A stretch of 34,378 bases of DNA from Kutzneria sp. 744 (lineage in GTDB: Bacteria > Actinomycetota > Actinomycetes > Mycobacteriales > Pseudonocardiaceae). Below are positions 3,037 to 25,407 of the stretch, piece after piece (position 1 is the first letter of the stretch; the number at the start of each line of letters is the position of its first letter). The notes below the pieces were generated by a model, which had not been told where the DNA came from, ran no database searches, and saw only the letters and a list, made by a program, of their open reading frames with translations. A program made the position numbers and the translations under genes. The DNA is taken from positions 3,603,836 to 3,638,213 of the forward strand of contig NZ_KK037166.1 of NCBI RefSeq assembly GCF_000568255.1, written 5' to 3'.

Positions 3037-5913
3037 TCACACGGCGGTGAGGAGGCGGAGGGTGCGGCGGGCTTCGGCCTGCCAGCCGGTGAAGCCCAAG
3101 CCCTTGAACAGCTTGATGGACTCCCGGACGGCGCGGCGGCCCTCGGCGGGATTGCCCGCGTGGTGTCGAAGCTGACCCAGGCCCAGCAGGGCATACGCCC
3201 GGCCGCGGCGGTCGTCGATGCCCTCGAACACCGCGAGGCTGGCCCGCAGCAAGGCATCGGCCCGGTCGTCCTGGCCCCGACGGCGATGCCACTCCCCCAA
3301 CGACCGCAAGGCATATCCGCTGGCGTGCTCGTAACCGGACGCCTGGAACATCTCCAGGGCACGGGTCAACGGATCCTCGGCGTCGGACAGCTCCCCGAGG
3401 CTGCGCAACACATGCGCTTCCCAATGCCGGTCGGCCAGACGGACGCTGGCGGCCAGCGCGGACTCCAGCAAGGCGCCGGCACGGCCGTGTTCACCGTTGC
3501 GCCGCAGGACATCCGCCAGCTGTTTGCCGGCATAGGCCTCGCGGCGGCGGTCACGGAGGCCGCGGGCGAGGCGGAGGCTGTCCTCGAAACACCGGATGGC
3601 CTCGCCGGGACGGCCGCGGTCGGCGAGCAGGGCGCCGAGCTGGCGCAGGACATCGGCCTGCCCGGTCTGGTCGTCGACCTGGCGCAGCATGGTCAGGCCG
3701 TCGGCCAGGGCGACCTCGGCCCGTTCGATGTCGCCGCGTTCGACGTCGATGTCGGCACGGGCGGCGAGCGCTCGGCCGAGCCCGGACTGGTCGTCGAGCC
3801 CGGTGAAGATCCGGCACGCCATGTCGTAGTAGACGCGAGCCCGGTTGGCCCGGCCGTGCGCGTCCCAGTGCAGGTCGCCGAGCCGGCACAGGCTGACGGC
3901 CTGCGCCCGGCGGTCGCCGGTGTGCCGGGCCGAAACCAGGCCGATGACCTCGATCCGCCGGTCGCCGGGGCGAGCCGTGCAGACCTCGGCCAGCCGCCCG
4001 GCCAGCGCCCACCGGCCGAGGCGGTGGGCCAGCCGCGTCAGGCAGTGCAGCATGCCGGCTTCCGCGTCCCGCCAGCCCAGCGGATCCGCCTCGGCCCGGC
4101 GGACCACCGCCGGATCGGCCACCTTGTCAGCCGGGGCAACGGGAAAGCGCCCGATCGGCAGCTTGCGGTCGGCACGGACGGAAACGTCCAAATAGGACCT
4201 GAGCAGACGGTCGAGCGTCTCGTCACGGGACGGTTCCTCGGCCAGCAGGCGCTCGTAGCCGAAGACCCGGATCAATTCGTGCGGACGATAACGCAGCTGC
4301 CCCAGGCGATCCCGGCCGACGACGGCGACCAGCTGGGCCTCGACCAGGCCGGCGAGGGCGGCCGAGGCGTCGACTCCGAGCAGCGTGGTCATGGCCCACT
4401 CGGGCAGGTCCACGGAGTCGAACCAGCCCAGCAGCCGCAACAGCTTGCGCTGCACCGGATCGCACGAGCGGTAGCCGATCTCGACGCCGGCCCGCACGTC
4501 CAGGTCGCCGACCTTGAGCTCGGCCAGCCGGCGCCGCTCGTCGGCGATCCGCTCAACTAATTCCCGCACCAGCAGATACTTCGTCGACGCCAGCTTGGCG
4601 CCGGCCACCCGCACGGCCAGCGGCAGATGCCCGCACAGCCGAACCAGCTCACGGGACGATTCCTCTTCCGCCGCAACACGATCCGCGCCGGCAACGGCCG
4701 AGAGCAGCGCCAGCGCGTCGGCCGGCGACAGCTCGCCCACCTCGGCGACGACGGCGCCCTCCAACCCGGAGAGGCGGCTTCTGGACGTCACGAGCACGGC
4801 GCAGCGGGCGCCGCCGGGCAACAGCGGCCGGACCTGCGCCTCGCAGGCGGCGTCGTCCAGCACCACCAGGATCCGTCGATCGGCCGTCACGCTGCGGAAA
4901 AGCTGTTGTCTTTCCAGGAGGCCGTACGGGACCTCGCTGCCGAGCGAGGACAGGAACGAGCCGAGCACCTCGGCGGTCCCCACCCCACGCAGCTGGGCGA
5001 ACAGTTGGCCGTCCGGAAAGTCCGAACGCCGGTCATGGGCGATCCGCACCGCCAGCGCGGTCTTCCCGGCCCCCGACGGTCCACACAGGACAGTGAATGC
5101 GCCGTCACGCGGGATCTCTTGGCGTCCAACGAAGTCCGGCACGGCCGGCGGCAGCTGAGCGGTTCTGACCACGGTCCGCGGCAGCTCCCACGCGGACGGG
5201 TCGGTCACCAGCCGACGCAGCACCGGCCCGGGATCGGCATCGAGGAACGCGGCGACCCGGTCGACGACCTCGGCGGTCTCGGCCGACCGGCCGGCCTGGT
5301 GCAGCGCCACCATCAGCGAGCCGGCCAGCACCTCCCGCCCGGGATCCCGGGCCAGCAACACGGTCAGCTCGGCGATCACGTCATGGCAGCGGCCGAGGGC
5401 CAGGTCGATCCGAACACGACTGTCCACAGTGGATAATCGAAGCTCCTCCAGCCACCGCGCATGCCCGTCGAGCACCGGCCCGCGCACGACATCGCACAGC
5501 GCGTCCCCGCGCCACCGGCCCAGCGCCGCGGCCAGCAGCTCTCGCGCGGGCCCCAGCCGACCGGCGCCCATCAGCTCGCGGCCGCGCCGGGCCTCGGCGA
5601 CGAACTCGGACTGGTCGAACTCGGCCGAAGGCGCGAAAGAACCGTCAAACGTCAACAAGTAGCCCGAGGGCCCGGTGCGGATCGCGTTGGCCGGCAACAC
5701 CTTGCGCAGCTTGGACACCGCGACCTGGACGATGACCCTGGCACTGCGCGGAGTCTGCGACGGCCACAGCTCGTCGACGATCGTGCTCAGCGACACCCAG
5801 CTGCCGGCGTTGGCCAGCAGCAGGGCCAACACGGTGCGCTGCTGCGGCGTGGTGGGCGTGACCGCCTCCCCGGTACGGGTGACCTCCAGTGGGCCGAGGA
5901 TCCCGTACCGCAT
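3037..5913 (-). CDS. AfsR/SARP-family regulator (DNA-binding/BTAD, NB-ARC ATPase, TPR)
   Basis: This 958-residue regulator belongs to the AfsR type. Residues 1-95 form the OmpR-like winged helix (MRYGILGPLEVTRTGEAVTP, then SKLRKVLPANAIRTGPSGYLL). A bacterial transcriptional activation domain follows to about residue 240. The NB-ARC ATPase has Walker A GPSGAGKTA near residue 280, Walker B RILVVLDDAA near 350, and GLPLA-like GHLPLAVRVAGAKLAS. The last 300 residues are TPR repeats. The gene begins 12 bp after the cvnD stop and is therefore probably the last gene of the conservon operon. Codon 452 is TTA (plus-strand taa at 4558-4560), which in actinomycetes makes translation depend on the bldA tRNA. 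SARPs usually activate specialised-metabolite genes, but no such cluster is visible here. Confidence 0.95.
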   Translation of the reverse strand: MRYGILGPLEVTRTGEAVTPTTPQQRTVLALLLANAGSWVSLSTIVDELWPSQTPRSARVIVQVAVSKLRKVLPANAIRTGPSGYLLTFDGSFAPSAEFDQSEFVAEARRGRELMGAGRLGPARELLAAALGRWRGDALCDVVRGPVLDGHARWLEELRLSTVDSRVRIDLALGRCHDVIAELTVLLARDPGREVLAGSLMVALHQAGRSAETAEVVDRVAAFLDADPGPVLRRLVTDPSAWELPRTVVRTAQLPPAVPDFVGRQEIPRDGAFTVLCGPSGAGKTALAVRIAHDRRSDFPDGQLFAQLRGVGTAEVLGSFLSSLGSEVPYGLLERQQLFRSVTADRRILVVLDDAACEAQVRPLLPGGARCAVLVTSRSRLSGLEGAVVAEVGELSPADALALLSAVAGADRVAAEEESSRELVRLCGHLPLAVRVAGAKLASTKYLLVRELVERIADERRRLAELKVGDLDVRAGVEIGYRSCDPVQRKLLRLLGWFDSVDLPEWAMTTLLGVDASAALAGLVEAQLVAVVGRDRLGQLRYRPHELIRVFGYERLLAEEPSRDETLDRLLRSYLDVSVRADRKLPIGRFPVAPADKVADPAVVRRAEADPLGWRDAEAGMLHCLTRLAHRLGRWALAGRLAEVCTARPGDRRIEVIGLVSARHTGDRRAQAVSLCRLGDLHWDAHGRANRARVYYDMACRIFTGLDDQSGLGRALAARADIDVERGDIERAEVALADGLTMLRQVDDQTGQADVLRQLGALLADRGRPGEAIRCFEDSLRLARGLRDRRREAYAGKQLADVLRRNGEHGRAGALLESALAASVRLADRHWEAHVLRSLGELSDAEDPLTRALEMFQASGYEHASGYALRSLGEWHRRRGQDDRADALLRASLAVFEGIDDRRGRAYALLGLGQLRHHAGNPAEGRRAVRESIKLFKGLGFTGWQAEARRTLRLLTAV

Positions 5914-16884: not shown

Positions 16885-18378
16885 TCAGAACGGCCAGGCC
16901 TCGCGCTCGCCGGCTTCCAGCAACGGCACCATGCCGAAGGCCGCGTCGCTCAGGCCGCCGAAGGTGAAGCGGCCCTCGGTGTGCCCGAACTCGTAGCCGG
17001 CCAGGTTCCACGTGTAGACCGGAACCCCGCCCGGCACCACCGAAGTGGGCAGCGTGGAGCCGCTGTGCTGCTCGTCCGTCACGATGACCACGCGGTCGTG
17101 GCGACGGTAGAACTGCTTCAGCGCACCGATCGTGTCCGTGCCGCCGAGGCTGTCGAACCGGTCCCGCACCACCGGCAGCACCGACTCGCCGGCCCGCAGC
17201 TTCACCGGGCTCGCCGTGGTGCCGAACTGCACGAGATCGGCCTTGGCGGCCCGCAGCGCGATCGCCGTCCCGAACAACGCCGCCGCATCCGCCCTGGTCA
17301 GGTCGGACTTCGCGGACACGGTGCTGTAGAACATCGAACCCGAGCGGTCGACCAGCACCAGCGTGCGGCCCGGCAAGCTTGGCACGGTGGCGAGGCTGGC
17401 GTTGAGGGCCTGCTCCAGCGCCCACGCCCAGCGCAGCGACGGCGCCGCCCGGAACGCCGACAGGAACCGCATCGGCAGCTGCCGGGACCGCGCCACCTGC
17501 TCCGGGTCTGCCAGCTTCCGCGCGACCGTCGCCGCCACCTCGTCGGACACGCCGGCCCGGTCGAAGTTGCGGAGGTTGCGCAGCAACGCCATGTAGCCCA
17601 TGGTCGGGATCAGCGCCGCCCACACCTCGGCCGTCAGCGGGCCCTGCAGCCAGCCGGCGACCGACTCCCACGTCATGCCGGCCCGCTTCAGCGTCGGCGT
17701 CGCGTCGGCCGCGAACAGCTCGCGGCGGCGCTCCACCGGCCACGCCAGCAGCTCCTCGCGGGCGTTGACCATCGGCAGGCCTGTCGGAATTTCGGCGACG
17801 TTTCCGTAGCGGCGGTCGAGGGCGTGCGTGAACAACGCGCCCTGCCAGCCTTCGGCCGGCTTCGGGTGCGTCAGATTCAGCACGTCGCCCATTCGAACGC
17901 CACGCGCCTCACTATCCCATTTCAGCAGCGCACGCTCGTCGTAAAGCCGACAAACGGCGTCACCAATGCCGCGCTTGACCGGCTTAGGAATTACACGGCC
18001 ATACATGGCAAGCCAATAGGACAGGAATTCACCCGGCTCGTCCGCGCGCTGCAGCACCGAATTCACGACCTGTCGCGTCATACCCGGCTCGGTGCGCGCG
18101 TGCGCGAATTCCGCGGCACCGACGATCGAGGCCGAGCGCATGTTGGCGGAGCCGCGCAGCCAGCCGAGCAGGCGCGCCGTCCATTCCGGGTCAGCGACCG
18201 TCGCGGACCGCACGAGCTGCGCAAACCGGTTGTCGCGCTCGCCCGCGGTCTCGTAGAAGGTGTGCTCGCCGACCATGTTCGCCACGGCGAGCAGGAACAG
18301 CTCCCGCTTGACGTCACGCTTGACGCCGACGCCACCCTCGTGCGTCTTCGGCCGACGCAGCACGTTGAACTTCGCCAT
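16885..18378 (-). CDS. rsr: Ro60 orthologue Rsr: TROVE-domain RNA-binding protein with vWA domain
   Basis: This 497-residue TROVE protein is an orthologue of eukaryotic Ro60 and Deinococcus Rsr. It opens MAKFNVLRRPKTHEGGVGVK and contains ELFLLAVANMVGEHTFYE, LLGWLRGSANMRSASIVGA and EFLSYWLAMYGRVIPKPVKR, all HEAT-like TROVE ring segments. The C-terminal vWA domain has a MIDAS motif LVLVDRSGSM near residue 346 and VTDEQHSG near 434. Rsr proteins form a ring that binds Y RNA on the outer face and misfolded or 3'-tailed RNA in the centre, and help RNA decay or repair. Two Y RNA candidates lie upstream on the same strand beyond an IS110 element. GGGGGAA precedes the ATG. Length and motifs are normal. 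Confidence 0.95.
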   Translation of the reverse strand: MAKFNVLRRPKTHEGGVGVKRDVKRELFLLAVANMVGEHTFYETAGERDNRFAQLVRSATVADPEWTARLLGWLRGSANMRSASIVGAAEFAHARTEPGMTRQVVNSVLQRADEPGEFLSYWLAMYGRVIPKPVKRGIGDAVCRLYDERALLKWDSEARGVRMGDVLNLTHPKPAEGWQGALFTHALDRRYGNVAEIPTGLPMVNAREELLAWPVERRRELFAADATPTLKRAGMTWESVAGWLQGPLTAEVWAALIPTMGYMALLRNLRNFDRAGVSDEVAATVARKLADPEQVARSRQLPMRFLSAFRAAPSLRWAWALEQALNASLATVPSLPGRTLVLVDRSGSMFYSTVSAKSDLTRADAAALFGTAIALRAAKADLVQFGTTASPVKLRAGESVLPVVRDRFDSLGGTDTIGALKQFYRRHDRVVIVTDEQHSGSTLPTSVVPGGVPVYTWNLAGYEFGHTEGRFTFGGLSDAAFGMVPLLEAGEREAWPF

Positions 18379-18616: not shown

Positions 18617-19823
18617 ATGACCAGCGGTTTCAGGGTGTTCCTCGGCCTGGACGTCGGCAAGGACGCCCATCACGCCGTCGGCCTGGACCCCACCGGCAAG
18701 CGCCTGCACGACGCCCCGCTGCCCAACAGCGAACCCAAACTCCGGGCGCTGTTCGACAAACTCGCCCAACATGGACCGCTGCTGGTCGTCGTCGATCAAC
18801 CAGCCACGATCGGCGCGCTGCCCGTCGCGGTCGCCCGCGCCGCCGGCCACCAGGTCGCTTACCTGCCCGGCCTGGCCATGCGCCGCATCGCCGACCTCTA
18901 CCCCGGCCGCGCCAAGACCGACGCCCGGGACGCGTTCATCATCGCCGACGCCGCCCGCTCGCTGCCCCACACCTTGCGCCCGGTCGACGTCGGCGACGAC
19001 GCCCTGGCCGAGCTGGACGTGCTGGTCGGGTTCGACGACGACCTGGCCGGCGAAGCAACGCGCATCAGCAACCGCATCCGCGGCCTGCTCACCGGCATCC
19101 ACCCCGCACTCGAACGCGCGATCGGCCCACGGATCAGCCACCCAGCAGTGCTGGAGATCCTGTCCCGCTGCGGCGGCCCGACCGGCATCCGCGCCGCCGG
19201 CCGCCGCCGGCTCGCCGCGATCGCCACCGCGCACGCCCCCCGCATGGGCGACAAACTGGTCACCGCGATCATGACAGCGCTGAACGAGCAGACCGTCACC
19301 GTCCCAGGCACCACAGCAGCGGACACCGTGCTGCCCCGAAAAAAAAAACAGTCTGAAAACCGTGCTCCAGCAACGCAAACAGATCGCCTCCGAGGTCGAG
19401 GAGATACTCGATGCGCACCCTCTTGCCGGGGTCCTGACCTCGATGCCCGGCATTGGGGTCAGGACCGCCGCCCGGATCCTGCTGGAGATCGGCGACGCCT
19501 CGGCGTTCAAGTCCTCCGGTCACTTGGCCGCCTACGCCGGCATCGCCCCGGTCACCCGCAGTTCCGGCTCCTCCATCAAGGGCGAACACCCAGCGCGCAC
19601 CGGCAACCGCAAGCTCAAACGCGCGTTCTTCCTCGCCGCGTTCGCCGCGCTGGCCGACCCCACCAGCAGGGCCTACTACGACCGAAAACGGGCTGAGGGC
19701 AAGAAACACAACGCCGCCCTGATCTGCCTGGCCAGGCGCCGCTGCGACGTGCTCTACGCGATGCTGCGCAACCGCGCCTGCTACCGGCATCCCGAGCCGC
19801 TTCCCGCCCCGGCCGCGGCTTGA
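18617..19823 (+). pseudogene. IS110-family transposase, frameshifted at an A10 tract
   Basis: The N-terminal RuvC-like DEDD half reads from ATG 18617: FLGLDVGKDAHHAVGLDPTG with D12, then YPGRAKTDARDAFIIADAAR. The C-terminal half is in another frame from about 19350 to 19823: GVLTSMPGIGVRTAARILLE, and SSGSSIKGEHPARTGNRKLK with the expected serine cluster. The break is a run of ten A at 19339-19348. One A fewer would join the halves as LPRKKNSLKTVLQQ. The total would be about 400 residues, normal for the family. A homopolymer this long in such a GC-rich gene could mean programmed slippage, a decay mutation, or a sequencing error. Confidence 0.88.
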
Positions 19824-19851: not shown

Positions 19852-19999
19852 GACCGCGGACGCGTCCGAGATCGAAGTCGGTGACGGTGATGTCAATTGC
19901 TCTGCCAGCTGAGCTATCGGGTCACCCCGAGCGGGATTCGAACCCGCGACCGATTGATCCGAAGTAACCGTCGCCTGCGCACCAGACACGTCCGCGATC
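19852..19999 (-). ncRNA. yrlA: YrlA-type bacterial Y RNA with circularly permuted tRNA mimic
   Basis: A 15-bp stem (19852-19866 with 19985-19999, including G.U pairs) closes a 148-nt RNA. Inside, gacggt/accgtc (19883-19888 with 19967-19972) leads to a tRNA-like module at 19893-19957: an anticodon-type stem ATTGA/TCAAT, D-arm GCTC..GAGC with the loop GG, and a perfect T-arm GCGGG-TTCGAAT-CCCGC. The acceptor stem TCGGG/CCCGA is closed by a GTGA tetraloop instead of having free ends. The T half comes before the D half, so it is not an ordinary tRNA. Published bacterial YrlA Y RNAs have this design and bind Rsr. The rsr gene lies on the same strand, 1.5 kb downstream across IS110. Confidence 0.82.
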
Positions 20000-20079
20000 A
20001 GCACTCCCGAGATCGAGGCGTCCCACGGCGGGATTCTTCGTGACAGGAAGTAACCGTCGGACTTCGCACCGGGAGTGCT
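20000..20079 (-). ncRNA. Second Y RNA candidate, directly upstream of yrlA
   Basis: A perfect 10-bp stem (20000-20009 with 20070-20079) closes an 80-nt RNA. It shares a 13-mer with yrlA, gaagtaaccgtcg (20047-20059 and 19961-19973), plus cgcacc a few bases on. Near the other end it shares ccgagatcga (20007-20016 and 19866-19875). These common parts lie on the two strands near the base, where Ro/Rsr binds in known Y RNAs. The 5' strand reads GTCCGACGGTTAC, similar to the conserved GGUCCGA region of animal Y RNAs. It lacks the tRNA-like module. The two RNAs abut and may come from one transcript. Confidence 0.6.
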
Positions 20080-20084
20080 TCGCC

Positions 20085-20123: not shown

Positions 20124-20735
20124 TCAGGCGCCGACCAGCAGCCCTACCCCGACGACCGCCATCGTCGCCGCCACCAGCCCGTCCAGCACCCGCCACGACG
20201 ACGGCTTCGCGAAGAAGGAACTCAGCAGCCGCGCCCCGAAGCCGATCGCCGTGAACCAGCACAGGCTGGCCAGCACCGCGCCGATGGCGAAGTCCCAGCG
20301 CAACGCGCCGTAACCGGCGGCGATCGAGCCCACCAGCAGCACCGTGTCCAAGTAGACGTGCGGGTTCAGCCAGGTCATGGCCAGGCAGGTCAGCGCCGCC
20401 CGCTTGCGGGAGCCCGTCGTCACGCCCTCCGCCGTCATGCTCGACGGCTTCAGTGCCCGCTTCGCCGCCAGAAATCCGTAGCCCAGCAGGAAAACCCCGC
20501 CGACGACGGCCACCGTGGTGACCGCCGCCGGCCAGGCCTGCACCAGCACCCCCACGCCGCCCACGCCCAGCCCGATGAGCACCGCGTCCGAAGCGCCGCA
20601 GATCGCCACCACCGTCAGCACCGCGTCTCGTCGGATGCCTTGGCGCAGCACGAATGCGTTCTGCGCGCCGATCGCCACGATCAGGGACAGGGAGGTGCCG
20701 AAGCCCGCCGCCACGACGAGCACCACGTTGGTCAT
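20124..20735 (-). CDS. argO: LysE/ArgO-family amino acid exporter
   Basis: This 203-residue membrane protein has about six helices. It shows the family start GFGTSLSLIVAIGAQNAFVL, then LRQGIRRDAVLTVVAICGASD and the mid-protein MTWLNPHVYLDTVLLVGSI. Such proteins export basic amino acids (lysine or arginine) to prevent toxic build-up. It is divergent from a LysR regulator of the ArgP/LysG type, its usual partner, with 69 bp between the starts. Substrate choice between lysine and arginine is open. Confidence 0.93.
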   Translation of the reverse strand: MTNVVLVVAAGFGTSLSLIVAIGAQNAFVLRQGIRRDAVLTVVAICGASDAVLIGLGVGGVGVLVQAWPAAVTTVAVVGGVFLLGYGFLAAKRALKPSSMTAEGVTTGSRKRAALTCLAMTWLNPHVYLDTVLLVGSIAAGYGALRWDFAIGAVLASLCWFTAIGFGARLLSSFFAKPSSWRVLDGLVAATMAVVGVGLLVGA

Positions 20736-20804: not shown

Positions 20805-21653
20805 ATGGCTGATCTGCCCGCCGACCACGTGCGGACCCTCCTGGCGGTCGTCGACGCCGGCACCTTCGACGCCGCCGCGGCGGCCCTGCACGTCACCCCG
20901 TCCGCCGTCAGCCAGCGCGTCAAGGCCCTCGAACAGCGCACCGGCCGGGTCCTGCTGATGCGCACCAAACCCGTGCAGCTCACCGAGTCCGGCCAGGTCG
21001 TCGTCCGCTTCGCCCGGCAGCTGGCCCAGCTCGAACGCGATGCCCGGGCCGAGCTCGGCATGACCACCCCCGGCGAGCCCGCCCGCCTGTCCATCGCCGT
21101 CAACGCCGACTCGCTCGCCACCTGGTTCCTGCCCGCCCTGACCCAGGTCCCCGGCGTCTGCTTCGAGCTGCACCGGGAGGACGAAGGTCACACCACGCAG
21201 CTGCTGCGCGAGGGCCTCGTCATGGCCGCCGTCACCTCAACCCCCGACCCCGTTCAGGGCTGTTCCGTCCGTTCCCTCGGCTCCCTGCGTTACCTCGCCT
21301 GCGCCTCACCGCGCCTGGGGTTCACCACCTTCGCCGACAGTCCGGTCGTCGTGTTCGACCGCCATGACCAGCTCCAGGACCGCTTTGCCGGTGGCGCCAG
21401 CGCTTTCCGGCACCAGATGCCGTCTTCCACCGCCTACCTCGACGCCGTCGTCGCCGGTCTGGGCTGGGGCCTCATTCCCGTCGCCCACGCCCGCGCCGGT
21501 TTCGCCGCCGGCACCCTCGTCAACCTCGCGCCCACCCGTCACATGGACGTCCCTCTCTTCTGGCAGCAGTGGAAACTCGACTCCCCCGCCCTCGCCGCCG
21601 CGGCCACCGCCATCCTCGCCACCGCCGCGGCCACCCTCATTCAGGCTGATTGA
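20805..21653 (+). CDS. argP: LysR-family regulator, ArgP/LysG type
   Basis: This 282-residue LysR-type regulator starts at ATG 20805 (GTG 20802 is the alternative). The N-terminal helix-turn-helix reads FDAAAAALHVTPSAVSQRVK followed by ALEQRTGRVLLMRTKPVQLT, close to ArgP/LysG/IciA. The effector domain follows (SIAVNADSLATWFLPAL). In this family basic amino acids are the co-inducers and the divergent exporter gene is the target. The C-terminal 20 residues are alanine-rich, a normal high-GC feature. Confidence 0.93.
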   Translation: MADLPADHVRTLLAVVDAGTFDAAAAALHVTPSAVSQRVKALEQRTGRVLLMRTKPVQLTESGQVVVRFARQLAQLERDARAELGMTTPGEPARLSIAVNADSLATWFLPALTQVPGVCFELHREDEGHTTQLLREGLVMAAVTSTPDPVQGCSVRSLGSLRYLACASPRLGFTTFADSPVVVFDRHDQLQDRFAGGASAFRHQMPSSTAYLDAVVAGLGWGLIPVAHARAGFAAGTLVNLAPTRHMDVPLFWQQWKLDSPALAAAATAILATAAATLIQAD

Positions 21654-21680
21654 CGGCGCTTTTCCTGGTCGTTCGCTACC

Positions 21681-21701
21681 CTCGGCACGGCGTGTGCCGA
21701 G
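21681..21701 (+). promoter_or_regulatory. Hairpin in the RHS gene leader
   Basis: ctcggcac (21681-21688) pairs perfectly with gtgccgag (21694-21701) around a 5-nt loop, 25 bp before the RHS start. TACCCT (21677-21682) just ahead could be a -10 box. The hairpin could be an operator, a transcript leader, or the terminator of argP. Confidence 0.4.
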
Positions 21702-21726
21702 CGGGGACAACTGGGGGCGAACCGGC

Positions 21727-24700
21727 GTGAGCAAGATCCACACGCATCCCGATCACCTGAGGCGGTCCGGCGGCAAGCTCAGCAGTTTCGGCGGCATCGG
21801 CGCGGTGTTGGCCAAGGCCATGGGCAAGGGCGTGCAGATCACCGGCAAGGTGTTCAGCGAAGGCGGTCGGGTCGTCGAGGGCGCCGGCAAGCGGCTGCAC
21901 ACCACCGCGGATCTCCACGAAGAAGCCGATCACAAGGGCGCCAGCGGCCTCAAGCGGCTCCACCCGGACCACGATCCGGGTCATCTGCCCAAGGGCTCGA
22001 CCGCGAAGAAGCATCCGGTCGGCACGCAGAACGCACCCGGCAACCACCATCGTCCCAAGGACTTGCACTCCACCAAGACCCCCGAACCCGAGCGAGTCTG
22101 CGAGAACGACCCGATCGACGTCGTCAGCGGTGACGTGGTGCTCGCCCACGTCGACGTCGAACTGGCCGGTGTCCTGCCGCTGGTGCTGCGTCGCACCCAC
22201 ATCTCCAGCTACCGCGCGGGCCGGTCGTTCGGGCCGAGCTGGGCGTCCACTGTGGACCAACGGCTGGAGTTCGACGAACAGGGCGTCGTGTTCGTCGCCG
22301 AAGACGGTATGATCCTGGCCTATCCACACCTTTCCGGCACCGATCCGGCACCGCCGCAACTGGGTCCGCGTTGGCCGTTGTGCCGTACCGACTCCGGCTT
22401 CGCCATCACGCAACAAGGCACTGGCCGCACGCTCCACTTCGCCGACTCCGACCAGGTCGCCGCGCTGGTCGCGATCACCGACCGCAACGACAATCGGATC
22501 GACTTCGACCGCGACGACTCGGGCAACGTCACCGCCGTGCGGCATTCCGGCGGATATCACCTCGACGTGCTCAGTGAGGACGACCGGCTGACCGAACTGC
22601 GCATGCGGTCGGACGGCGGTCACGTCACCGTTGTGCGGCATCGCTACGACCAGGGTCGGCTCGCCGAGGTTGTCAACTCCTCCGACCGTTCGCTGCGGTT
22701 CGAGTACGACCACGCGGGCCGTATCGCGCAGTGGACCGACCGCAACGGCCTCTGGTACCGCTACACCTACGACGCGCAAGGTCGTTGCATCGCCAACGAG
22801 GGGTCCGGCGGCTTCCTCAACGGAACCTTCGATTACGACGACCACGTCACGGTTTTCACCGACGCGCTCGGCGGCGCCACGACGTACCGCTTCAACGACC
22901 GGCACAAGATCGTCGCCAGGACCGACGCGCTCGGTCACACCACCACCCAGGAATGGGATTCCGCCGACCAGCTGGTGGCGACGACCGATCCGCTCGGCAA
23001 CACCACCAGGCGCACCTATGACGACGCCGGCCGGCTCGTAGCCACGACCCGGCCCGACGGCGCGCAGGCGCTGGCCGAGTACGACAGCCACGGCCAGGTG
23101 ACTGTCTTCGTCGGTCCGGACGGCGCGGTGTGGCGCCAGGAGTTCGACGAGCACGGCAACCTCATCACCGAGACCGATCCGGCCGGTGCGATCAACCGCT
23201 ACACGTACAACGACCGCGGCCATCGGATCGCGGTCACCGACGCAGTCGGCGCAACGCGGCGCATCGAGACCAATGCCGGCATTCCGATCGCCATCACCGA
23301 CCCGACCGGCGCGATCACGCGCTATACCCGCGATTCGTTCGGGCGCGCATCGGCGATCACCGATCCGCTCGGCGGCGTCACGCGCTACTCGTGGACCATC
23401 GAGGGCGCGATGCTCAGCCGGACCCGCCCTGACGGCGCGACCGAACATTGGCGGCACGACTCCGAGGGCAACGTCGTCGAGCACGTCGACTCGATGGGGC
23501 GACTCACCCGCACCCAGGTCACGCACTTCAACCTGCCCGCAGTCGAGAATCGCCCGGACGGGACCCGCCTGGTCTTCGGCTACGACCCGACGCTGCGGCT
23601 GACCTCCGTCACCAACGCCCAGGGCCTGGTGTGGCACCACGAGTACGACGCGGCCGGGCAACTGGTTCGCAAGGTCAACGGCGCCGGCCAGGCCACCACG
23701 ATCGTCCGCGACGCGCTCGGCCGGATCGTCGAACGCCACTCCGGCGATCAGGTCACCACCATCGAGTACGACCTCGTCGGGCAGGTCAGCCGGGCCCGCA
23801 ACGCCGTCGCCGACCTGAGCTACACCCGCGACGCCTTGGGGCGGGTGCTCTCGGAGTCGGTCAACGGCCGGGCCGTGCGCTCGACGTACGACCTGTTGGG
23901 GCGGCGGGTCCGCCGAACCACACCGTCCGGAATGGACAGTGTGTGGAGCTACGACGCCAACTCCCGGCCCACCCATCTGATCGCCGGGACGGCTTCGCTG
24001 TCGTTCGGCCACGACCCCGTCGGCAACGAAGTCACCCGGACACTGGGCAACGGCGTCGTCCTCGATCAGGCTTGGGACGCCAACCGCCGGATGACCGTGC
24101 AGGCTCTACGTTCGGGGGACCGGGTCGCTCGCCGGGGCTTCCACTACCGGCCCGACGACAACCTCGTCGCCGTGGACGATGTGACCGGAAGTGCCCGCCG
24201 CTACCAGGTCGACGTCATGGGCCGGGTGACCGGCGTCGAGAGCCCGAACCGCCGCGAGCAGTACGCCTACGACGCCGACGGCAACATCGTCTCGCCCGAT
24301 ACCGCCTATGCCGGCACTCTCGTGCAAACCGCGGACGACACAAGGTATTCGCACGACGCGCAGGGACGAGTCGTGGTGCGGCAGCGCAAGCGGCTGTCCC
24401 GCAAGCCGGACACGTGGCACTACGAATGGGATGCCGACGACCGCCTTGTCACCGTCGTCACCCCTGACGGCACCCGGTGGTCCTATCTCTACGACCCGCT
24501 GGGCCGGCGCATCGCCAAACTCCGCCTGGCATCGGACAACTCCGTCGTCGAGCGGATCGACTTCGCGTGGGACGGCGCCGTTGTCGCCGAGCAGACCGGC
24601 ACGGACGGCCGGACCACGACGTGGGAATTCGACCCGACCAGCTTCCGCCCGCTCACCCAGACCGAGCAGCGCGGTGTCGACCAGCGGTTCTACGCCATCG

Positions 24701-25407
24701 TCACGGACATCGTCGGCACCCCCACCGAGCTGGTCGACGAGCGGGGCGAGATCGCTTGGCGGCAGGAGTCGACCCTGTGGGGTCAGGCGCTCGGCACGCT
24801 GACCGGCCGGGCCGACACGCCCCTGCGGTTCCCCGGCCAGTACTTCGACCCGGAGACCGGGCTGCACTACAACTATCTGCGCTACTACGACCCGGTGGCC
24901 GGGCGCTACACCAGCGCCGACCCGCTCGGTCTGTTCGGCGGGCTGTCGCCGCACGGCTACGTGCACAACCCGACCGGATGGACCGACGCCCTCGGCCTCA
25001 CCGAGTCGGGCGACATCGAGTTCCTCGACCCCAACGACATCAACTTCTCGCAGCGATCGATCACCGAGAACACCTACAGCGATGCCATGCGCAACGGCCA
25101 GCGGGACTGGAACCAGTCGCCGGTGCACGTGATGGAGATCGACGGACAGCTGGTCAGCTACGACAACCGCCGGCTCGACGCGGCCCGGGAGGCCGGGGTC
25201 CCCGTCGGCGTGGTGCGGGTCCGGCCCGACGATCCGCATCCCGAGTCGACGACGGGCAAGACGTGGTCGGACAAGTTCCAGGAACGGTTCCGCGACCCGC
25301 GCAACCGGCTGGACGGTCAACCGGTGCCGAACACCGGACTCAGCGAGCGGCCGACAGCCATGCCACCGGGCTCCTGCGGTGGCGGCCGGCGAAGGAGAAG
25401 GCGATGA
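21727..25407 (+). CDS. RHS-repeat polymorphic toxin
   Basis: This 1226-residue protein starts at GTG 21727. There is no signal peptide; residues 1-120 are basic and histidine-rich. A DUF6531-like block (VCENDPIDVVSGDVVLAHVD) begins near 124. About 900 residues of RHS/YD repeats follow (for example YEYDHAGRIAQ-type units, DPLGNTTRRTYDDAGRLVAT). The conserved core end RYYDPVAGRYTSADPLGLFG is near 1053-1073. The variable tip (about 1095-1226) contains INFSQRSITENTYSDAM, SPVHVMEIDGQLVSYDNRRL and AAREAGVPVGVVRV. This resembles a ParB/sulfiredoxin-like toxin fold, which is inference. The last residues are a run of six arginines created by the next gene's ribosome binding site. Confidence 0.93.
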   Translation: MSKIHTHPDHLRRSGGKLSSFGGIGAVLAKAMGKGVQITGKVFSEGGRVVEGAGKRLHTTADLHEEADHKGASGLKRLHPDHDPGHLPKGSTAKKHPVGTQNAPGNHHRPKDLHSTKTPEPERVCENDPIDVVSGDVVLAHVDVELAGVLPLVLRRTHISSYRAGRSFGPSWASTVDQRLEFDEQGVVFVAEDGMILAYPHLSGTDPAPPQLGPRWPLCRTDSGFAITQQGTGRTLHFADSDQVAALVAITDRNDNRIDFDRDDSGNVTAVRHSGGYHLDVLSEDDRLTELRMRSDGGHVTVVRHRYDQGRLAEVVNSSDRSLRFEYDHAGRIAQWTDRNGLWYRYTYDAQGRCIANEGSGGFLNGTFDYDDHVTVFTDALGGATTYRFNDRHKIVARTDALGHTTTQEWDSADQLVATTDPLGNTTRRTYDDAGRLVATTRPDGAQALAEYDSHGQVTVFVGPDGAVWRQEFDEHGNLITETDPAGAINRYTYNDRGHRIAVTDAVGATRRIETNAGIPIAITDPTGAITRYTRDSFGRASAITDPLGGVTRYSWTIEGAMLSRTRPDGATEHWRHDSEGNVVEHVDSMGRLTRTQVTHFNLPAVENRPDGTRLVFGYDPTLRLTSVTNAQGLVWHHEYDAAGQLVRKVNGAGQATTIVRDALGRIVERHSGDQVTTIEYDLVGQVSRARNAVADLSYTRDALGRVLSESVNGRAVRSTYDLLGRRVRRTTPSGMDSVWSYDANSRPTHLIAGTASLSFGHDPVGNEVTRTLGNGVVLDQAWDANRRMTVQALRSGDRVARRGFHYRPDDNLVAVDDVTGSARRYQVDVMGRVTGVESPNRREQYAYDADGNIVSPDTAYAGTLVQTADDTRYSHDAQGRVVVRQRKRLSRKPDTWHYEWDADDRLVTVVTPDGTRWSYLYDPLGRRIAKLRLASDNSVVERIDFAWDGAVVAEQTGTDGRTTTWEFDPTSFRPLTQTEQRGVDQRFYAIVTDIVGTPTELVDERGEIAWRQESTLWGQALGTLTGRADTPLRFPGQYFDPETGLHYNYLRYYDPVAGRYTSADPLGLFGGLSPHGYVHNPTGWTDALGLTESGDIEFLDPNDINFSQRSITENTYSDAMRNGQRDWNQSPVHVMEIDGQLVSYDNRRLDAAREAGVPVGVVRVRPDDPHPESTTGKTWSDKFQERFRDPRNRLDGQPVPNTGLSERPTAMPPGSCGGGRRRRRR

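Follow-up and report, generated by a model that had tools for sequence, protein, structure and literature searches.

A candidate pair of Y RNA genes, one with a circularly permuted tRNA mimic, at the rsr locus of Kutzneria sp. 744 and other actinobacteria

The locus described here raises the question of what is encoded by a 228-bp stretch on the minus strand of the Kutzneria sp. 744 genome (11.6 Mb), at positions 19852-20079 of the window, by which is meant the whole stretch of 34,378 nucleotides that was analyzed (genome positions 3603836-3638213). The original prediction proposed two adjacent Y RNA genes, a long one built like YrlA and a short one abutting it, in a window that also holds rsr. 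In published work, bacterial Y RNAs are bound by Rsr at their lower stem, and PNPase is bound by YrlA through its tRNA-like part (PMC8394870; PMC4726728). The sequence comparisons reported here make it very probable that this stretch encodes two bacterial Y RNAs.

The locus and the two RNAs in Kutzneria sp. 744

The short and the long RNA lie end to end (Table 1). The 148-nt long RNA has a predicted folding energy of -73.9 kcal/mol (z -4.2) and the 80-nt short RNA, which folds as a single hairpin, one of -39.8 kcal/mol (z -4.1), and in neither case was any of 200 shuffles as low. From 5' to 3' the long RNA carries a T arm, a 5-bp acceptor stem capped by GTGA and a D arm, which is a permuted order; the arms and the GTGA-capped stem were found where the original prediction had placed them. 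That prediction also claimed a 15-bp stem formed by the ends, and the ends do pair, but the predicted terminal helix is slightly longer than 15 bp. Both strands of the window were also searched for the permuted core, defined by a 5-bp T arm, an acceptor stem of 5 bp or more and a 4-bp D arm; one site was found, compared with one site across all 50 mononucleotide shuffles.

When the tRNA-like part of YrlA was looked for in the short RNA, both the T arm and the D arm were absent. Its ends pair to form a long stem that carries the base motifs of the neighboring long RNA. A 13-mer (CGACGGTTACTTC) and a 10-mer (TCGATCTCGG) are common to both RNAs, as had been pointed out, and the shared base consists of a terminal helix, a 5' element (GGTGCGnAG...CGGTTACTTC) and a 3' element (GATCTCGG).

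Table 1. Features of the rsr locus in window coordinates
Feature	Position	Strand	Remarks
rsr, Ro60-like protein, 497 aa (TROVE)	16885..18378	-	TROVE 64.9 bits (cut-off 23), E 1.1e-17
IS110-type element between Y RNAs and rsr	~18385..~19845	+	Ends from comparing two copies
Putative long Y RNA, YrlA-like, circularly permuted tRNA mimic	19852..19999	-	Fold z -4.2; RF02553 46.6 bits; covariation n=27
Long RNA 3' conserved element, GATCTCGG	19866..19873	-	
Long RNA anticodon-stem 5' strand, tRNA positions 27-30, ATTG	19894..19897	-	
Long RNA D arm, stem GCTC/GAGC	19899..19914	-	
Long RNA acceptor stem TCGGG/CCCGA, loop GTGA	19917..19930	-	5 bp
Long RNA T arm, GCGGG TTCGAAT CCCGC	19931..19947	-	
Long RNA anticodon-stem 3' strand, tRNA positions 40-43, CAAT	19953..19956	-	Pairs with 19894-19897
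Long RNA 5' conserved element	19961..19983	-	
Putative short Y RNA, no tRNA-like part	20000..20079	-	Fold z -4.1; covariation n=35 relatives
Short RNA 3' conserved element, GATCTCGG	20007..20014	-	
Short RNA 5' conserved element, GGTGCGAAG to GGTTACTTC	20047..20070	-	
LysE-type gene	20124-20735		Upstream of RNAs

The presence of rsr in the window was confirmed by a TROVE match well above its cut-off, whose best stretch spans 63 of 442 profile positions; the genome has no other TROVE match. The Rsr profile also matches solved Ro60 and Rsr chains, and the rsr of Kutzneria buriramensis DSM 45791 is 87% identical. Residues D344, S346 and S348 are invariant among 13 aligned sequences and fit the DxSxS pattern of metal-site residues in the vWA part.

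In three Kutzneria relatives the gap between the RNA match and the rsr match is 16-28 nt, and in the window this gap is filled by an IS110-type element. An ORF at 18617 within the element matches DEDD_Tnp_IS110 (E 3.2e-49), and a second copy, 99% identical, is located at 3246271-3247724 of the genome. The transposase is apparently split, with overlapping ORFs in two frames (18617-19696 and 19362-19823). On the other side of the RNAs, upstream of the LysE-type gene, the plus strand encodes an RHS-repeat protein of 1347 aa (21364-25407). In another Kutzneria genome (G002, locus L021) the rsr match begins at residue 67 and is split in two, and both Y RNAs persist upstream.

Relation to YrlA and distribution at rsr loci

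Rfam (15) at gathering scores gave no matches in the window and none at the loci of seven relatives. At low stringency the YrlA model, RF02553, aligned over its full length with positions 19875-19971 (46.6 bits, E 2.5e-9 for 551 bases searched). The search with the YrlA model that had been suggested yielded this full-length alignment, which together with the permuted order bears out the claimed YrlA design, but the score does not reach the gathering score of 69 bits, and because of this the long RNA is called YrlA-like here and kept out of RF02553. Across 297 genomes of the family no match to RF02553 reached 69 bits. Low-scoring matches to this model were found in 125 of the 297 genomes, many of them without an rsr match, and many share a single score of 29.9 bits over model positions 30-81; these are presumed to be neighboring tRNA genes. 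The same search also gave matches in 6 of 14 control genomes, including E. coli and B. subtilis. Rfam alone was insufficient for this purpose. The short RNA had no Rfam match up to E 10, and the model of the Deinococcus radiodurans Y RNA (RF01053) matched only the T arm of the long RNA (14.6 bits, E 9.4).

The long RNA resembles YrlA (RF02553; Salmonella rsr-yrlBA-rtcBA; structure 6CU1) in that a permuted T arm, acceptor stem and D arm sit on a long stem beside rsr. It differs in lying upstream of rsr, and no RNA-repair genes were found among the scanned proteins of the window, a subset of its ORFs, unlike the rtcBA of Salmonella. In many relatives the long RNA also has an added anticodon hairpin where the Rfam consensus has none. 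YrlB of Salmonella is like the short RNA in being a second Y RNA gene of an rsr operon. Judged by sequence, these are two bacterial Y RNAs of which the long one is YrlA-like, and the short RNA is not a YrlA. One source lists yrlA as predicted in some mycobacteria (PMC9569102). In the open-access literature, parts of which were covered, nothing was found on actinobacterial Y RNA pairs, and mimic-free Y RNAs may be listed elsewhere. Chen (2014) reportedly states that every species has one or more Y RNAs with a tRNA-like domain. No priority is claimed for the pair, because that statement would imply that mimic-free partners were already known.

The 228-bp stretch was found in four of seven Kutzneria genomes, including that of the window, with 81-91% identity in the other three. 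The same four genomes have an rsr match, and the remaining three have neither rsr nor the RNA pair. In the family as a whole 68 of 297 genomes have an rsr match, and upstream DNA was read for 65 of them, giving 66 loci that leave out three genomes with weak matches (G104, G121 and G186) and secondary rsr-like places in some genomes. These 66 include one weak partial match without motifs (G136) and two loci with divergent motifs (G031 and G124). The rsr protein search missed a divergent Ro60-like protein (G035, L147:3168-4748; TROVE and vWA_Ro60) that has a YrlA-model match of 46.5 bits directly upstream, so Ro60-like genes are more frequent than the 68 counted.

Loci were scored by the 5' element, CTCGG on the 3' side, and the presence or absence of T and D arms. 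Among the 66 family loci the short mimic-free RNA was found in 44, an RNA bearing the mimic, complete or with the T arm alone, in 63 and both in 44, with the short RNA immediately before a mimic-bearing one in 43. When the best 80 of 447 named loci were scored (Streptomyces, Lentzea, Saccharothrix, Nocardia, Kitasatospora, Actinoallomurus and others; 14 shared with the family set), the corresponding numbers were 72, 74, 67 and 66. A stricter arm test left an RNA with both T and D arms in 53/66 family loci and 48/80 of these best named loci. The pairing with a mimic-free RNA had been called unusual; instead, going by these sequence motifs, a short RNA together with a mimic-bearing one is the commoner arrangement at the actinobacterial rsr loci examined.

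By the same rule the short RNA is missing in 22/66 family loci, including all five of genus g17, which have the long RNA only, and all seven of genus g26 (L024, L131, L132, L136-L138 and L140), and because of these 22 loci it is regarded as dispensable. In six of the seven g26 loci the lone RNA has a T arm and no D arm was found, which makes it a half mimic. One or two extra RNAs lie upstream in 20 of 21 loci of the Lentzea group; an extra RNA that passed a loose D-arm test as a full mimic was found by the stricter test to have a T arm and no good D arm, and was rejected as such. The spacing between the motifs is 29-50 nt in 45 short RNAs, and the distance from the last RNA to rsr is at most about 300 nt in the family loci. 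A box upstream of the RNAs, TTAAATCGTTGG (up to 3 mismatches), precedes 30 of 118 short RNAs compared with 1 of 1320 background windows. This box is perhaps a promoter element in some genera, not a general one.

A separate observation is that weak YrlA-model matches in Kutzneria relatives adjoin genes for DUF7873 (PF25283). Profile comparison gave no relation between DUF7873 and Rsr (probability 0.3%), and DUF7873 is absent from the genome that contains the window. All 29 full-length bacterial DUF7873 genes examined (23 from a set in which one genome with fragments was left out, and 6 from another) are followed on their own strand, at a distance of up to 600 nt, by one or two permuted tRNA-like RNAs, compared with 0/29 upstream, 0/29 on the reverse strand and 0/29 in one mononucleotide shuffle each (L149:2206-2937 with an RNA at 3089-3197; L155-L160; L248-L270). 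There are 73 phage records with a relative of DUF7873, and in the six that were read (L273-L278) an RNA was found downstream in five by the rule, or in all six if an acceptor loop of up to 39 nt is allowed, a looser rule that has no control of its own. In four of these six phage loci ACCA follows the acceptor strand of the first RNA. The D-arm and acceptor stems of the DUF7873-linked RNAs vary and their pairing is kept. No paper naming the family was found in the open-access literature. From sequence, DUF7873 and its RNAs appear to be a second system of permuted tRNAs or of mimics of them, one that does not involve Rsr.

Covariation and the anticodon arm

Both RNA folds covary. Alignments were hand-chosen, with mainly close relatives left out: 35 of 45 short RNAs (A1) and 27 of 53 long RNAs (A3). 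In the short RNA 82.5% of cells pair, compared with 74.2% in shuffles and 32-44% with slid partners. Two-sided changes were found in 56 cells compared with 24.1 in shuffles, and the covariation score was 0.237 compared with 0.110, a value that none of 500 shuffles reached. However, the number of pairs with a two-sided change, 9 compared with 7.2, is not exceptional (79/500 shuffles as high). Of the 10 inner-helix pairs, 7 show two-sided change. In the long RNA 94.2% of cells pair, compared with 30-44% when slid, 27 of 42 pairs change on both sides and the score is 0.468 compared with 0.154 (0/500 as high). All seven acceptor-stem pairs in this alignment change on both sides, while the four D-stem pairs are invariant and are uninformative on covariation because they never vary. 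RNAalifold alone gave the same long-RNA helices minus the anticodon pairs, with two-sided change in 23 of 37 pairs. The folding and comparison of related rsr loci that had been proposed as a check on the original prediction found conserved, compensatory pairing in both RNAs, so that, of the findings named there as refuting it, the one that concerns sequence did not arise.

A covariance model (R1) was built from the short-RNA alignment and run on 66 of the 80 named loci, leaving out 14 genomes already used. It gave a match of 80-100 nt in 59 of these 66 loci, all outside its training set and drawn from the best 80 of 447. Seven loci remained: four had a 41-46-nt match only, two had matches longer than 120 nt only and one had none. 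The four loci with short matches are Streptomyces (L177, L207, L225 and L240), where a minimal Y RNA or a remnant is possible. In 60 whole genomes, nine of which have an rsr match, R1 gave 12 matches in seven genomes, and all 12 lie beside rsr. R1 also matches the window at 19995-20082 with 73.4 bits, a score for a sequence that was among its own input.

The long RNAs were then compared at the positions of the anticodon arm, using tRNA numbering with the T and D arms as reference points. By rule, 157 RNAs have a T arm and 89 of these also have a D arm; 55 were long enough to enter a first test and 87 a second (two were too short). Positions 27-28 pair with 42-43 in 85/87 long RNAs, although this count, like the other anticodon counts here, is inflated by the relatedness of the sequences. 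In 44/87 a 3-bp stem (29-31/39-41) closes a 7-nt loop, which completes a permuted cloverleaf. In the first test a hairpin with a 7-nt loop was found in 43/55, and its loop has a pyrimidine at 32 in 43/43, U33 in 43/43, a purine at 37 in 42/43 and A38 in 42/43. Positions 34-36 of these 43 hairpins show 14 different triplets, and positions 36-37 are UA in 34, GG in 4, AA in 3 and other in 2. When the register was slid, 0-9 hairpins were found and at most one had U33 and A38. Among the 24 distinct sequences of the loop class, 27-28/42-43 pair in all 24, compared with a mean of 8.4 and a maximum of 14 in 2000 shuffles. This class includes Lentzea, Saccharothrix, Actinokineospora, Actinocrispum, Amycolatopsis, Actinoallomurus, Nocardia and others, with many of the long Y RNAs outside Kutzneria at loci L019-L025, L089-L145, L163, L184, L201 and L208.

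The other 43/87 long RNAs have no such hairpin, and 37 of them have a 4-bp stem, 27-30/40-43. All four Kutzneria and nearly all Streptomyces tested belong to this class; the long RNA of the window has the stem (ATTG/CAAT) and no anticodon-like loop. Of 27 distinct sequences without the hairpin, 21 pair fully, compared with a mean of 3.1 and a maximum of 12 in 2000 shuffles. Some of the conservation in the loop may reflect inheritance, but variation among the triplets and compensation in the stems argue against inheritance as the whole cause. By sequence comparison, the mimic includes an anticodon stem in the tRNA register, and a permuted-tRNA structure with an anticodon arm is well supported.

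Proposed function and alternative readings

We infer that both genes are transcribed and that Rsr binds their RNAs, presumably through the base common to both. By analogy with the Salmonella system and with the Rsr-Y RNA-PNPase complex of Deinococcus radiodurans, in which the Y RNA is held by Rsr, the base of the long RNA would hold Rsr and its tRNA-like part would hold a partner, for example PNPase. The short RNA would sit on the same surface of Rsr without bringing in the partner, and could thereby gate or compete. The reading as a whole, two Y RNAs of a single Rsr of which the long one tethers a partner and the short one gates or competes, is considered probable. The division of labor within it, tether against gate, is an analogy that we hold tentatively, at somewhat less than an even chance. 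Counting against the Y RNA reading are the IS element that now parts the RNAs from rsr, the truncated and split rsr of G002, the RF02553 score below cut-off, the unexceptional number of short-RNA pairs with two-sided change and the loci that have no short RNA.

The anticodon arm allows a further proposal. Many actinobacterial long Y RNAs may be complete circularly permuted tRNAs, with pyrimidine 32, U33, variable 34-36, purine 37 and A38 in the loop and with the Y stem entering inside the anticodon stem. They could then act as decoys or substrates for enzymes of the anticodon loop, whether anticodon nucleases or modifying enzymes, and bring these to Rsr; the short RNA would be the mimic-free switch. 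For the Salmonella operon rsr-yrlBA-rtcBA, the authors of one paper suggest that an anticodon nuclease could be inhibited by YrlA through its tRNA-like part (PMC7790460). The proposal taken together is doubtful, and the decoy role in it is speculation.

The strongest competitor is that the structures serve above all as a cis-acting leader in rsr mRNA, to which Rsr would bind and so limit its own synthesis, with free Y RNAs being secondary. The short distance to rsr in the Kutzneria relatives, with the RNAs in the same direction, and in the other family loci is what would be expected of a leader. However, a leader would not need a conserved tRNA mimic, the long RNA has the build of published Y RNAs, and in the window the RNAs persist despite the IS element that separates them from rsr. 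A leader is therefore judged unlikely as the main role, although the two readings are not exclusive. Another reading takes the short RNA for a copy of the long one in decay, having lost the tRNA part and any role of its own; this would fit the shared base motifs, the absence of the short RNA from some genera and the 41-46-nt remnants in the four named loci without a full short RNA. Against decay, the compensatory pairing of the inner helix, the steady spacing and the occurrence in several families point to selection, and we regard this explanation as quite improbable.

The reading that a tRNA finder would suggest is a gene for tRNA-Thr, or else two tRNA remnants. ARAGORN names a tRNA-Thr at 19923-20013 and a tRNA-Arg at the corresponding place in one Kutzneria relative, which, together with the silence of Rfam at its cut-offs, bears out the expectation that such programs would miss or misname the RNA. 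The arms are permuted, though, and a core of this kind is rare in shuffled sequence; the Rfam tRNA model picks up the T arm alone (15.2 bits compared with a cut-off of 29), and across 27 relatives the helices persist through compensatory changes. The tRNA reading, to which we give almost no credence, is refuted by covariation in the permuted order.

Work on bacterial Y RNAs has covered few species. If the Y RNA reading given here holds, a short mimic-free Y RNA beside rsr in several actinobacterial families would provide a natural control that separates Rsr gating from PNPase tethering, and the anticodon arm, present in roughly half of the long RNAs tested, would make whole-tRNA mimicry by Y RNAs, and their contact with anticodon-loop enzymes, testable. 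Streptomyces strains carry the pair, which makes such tests practical.
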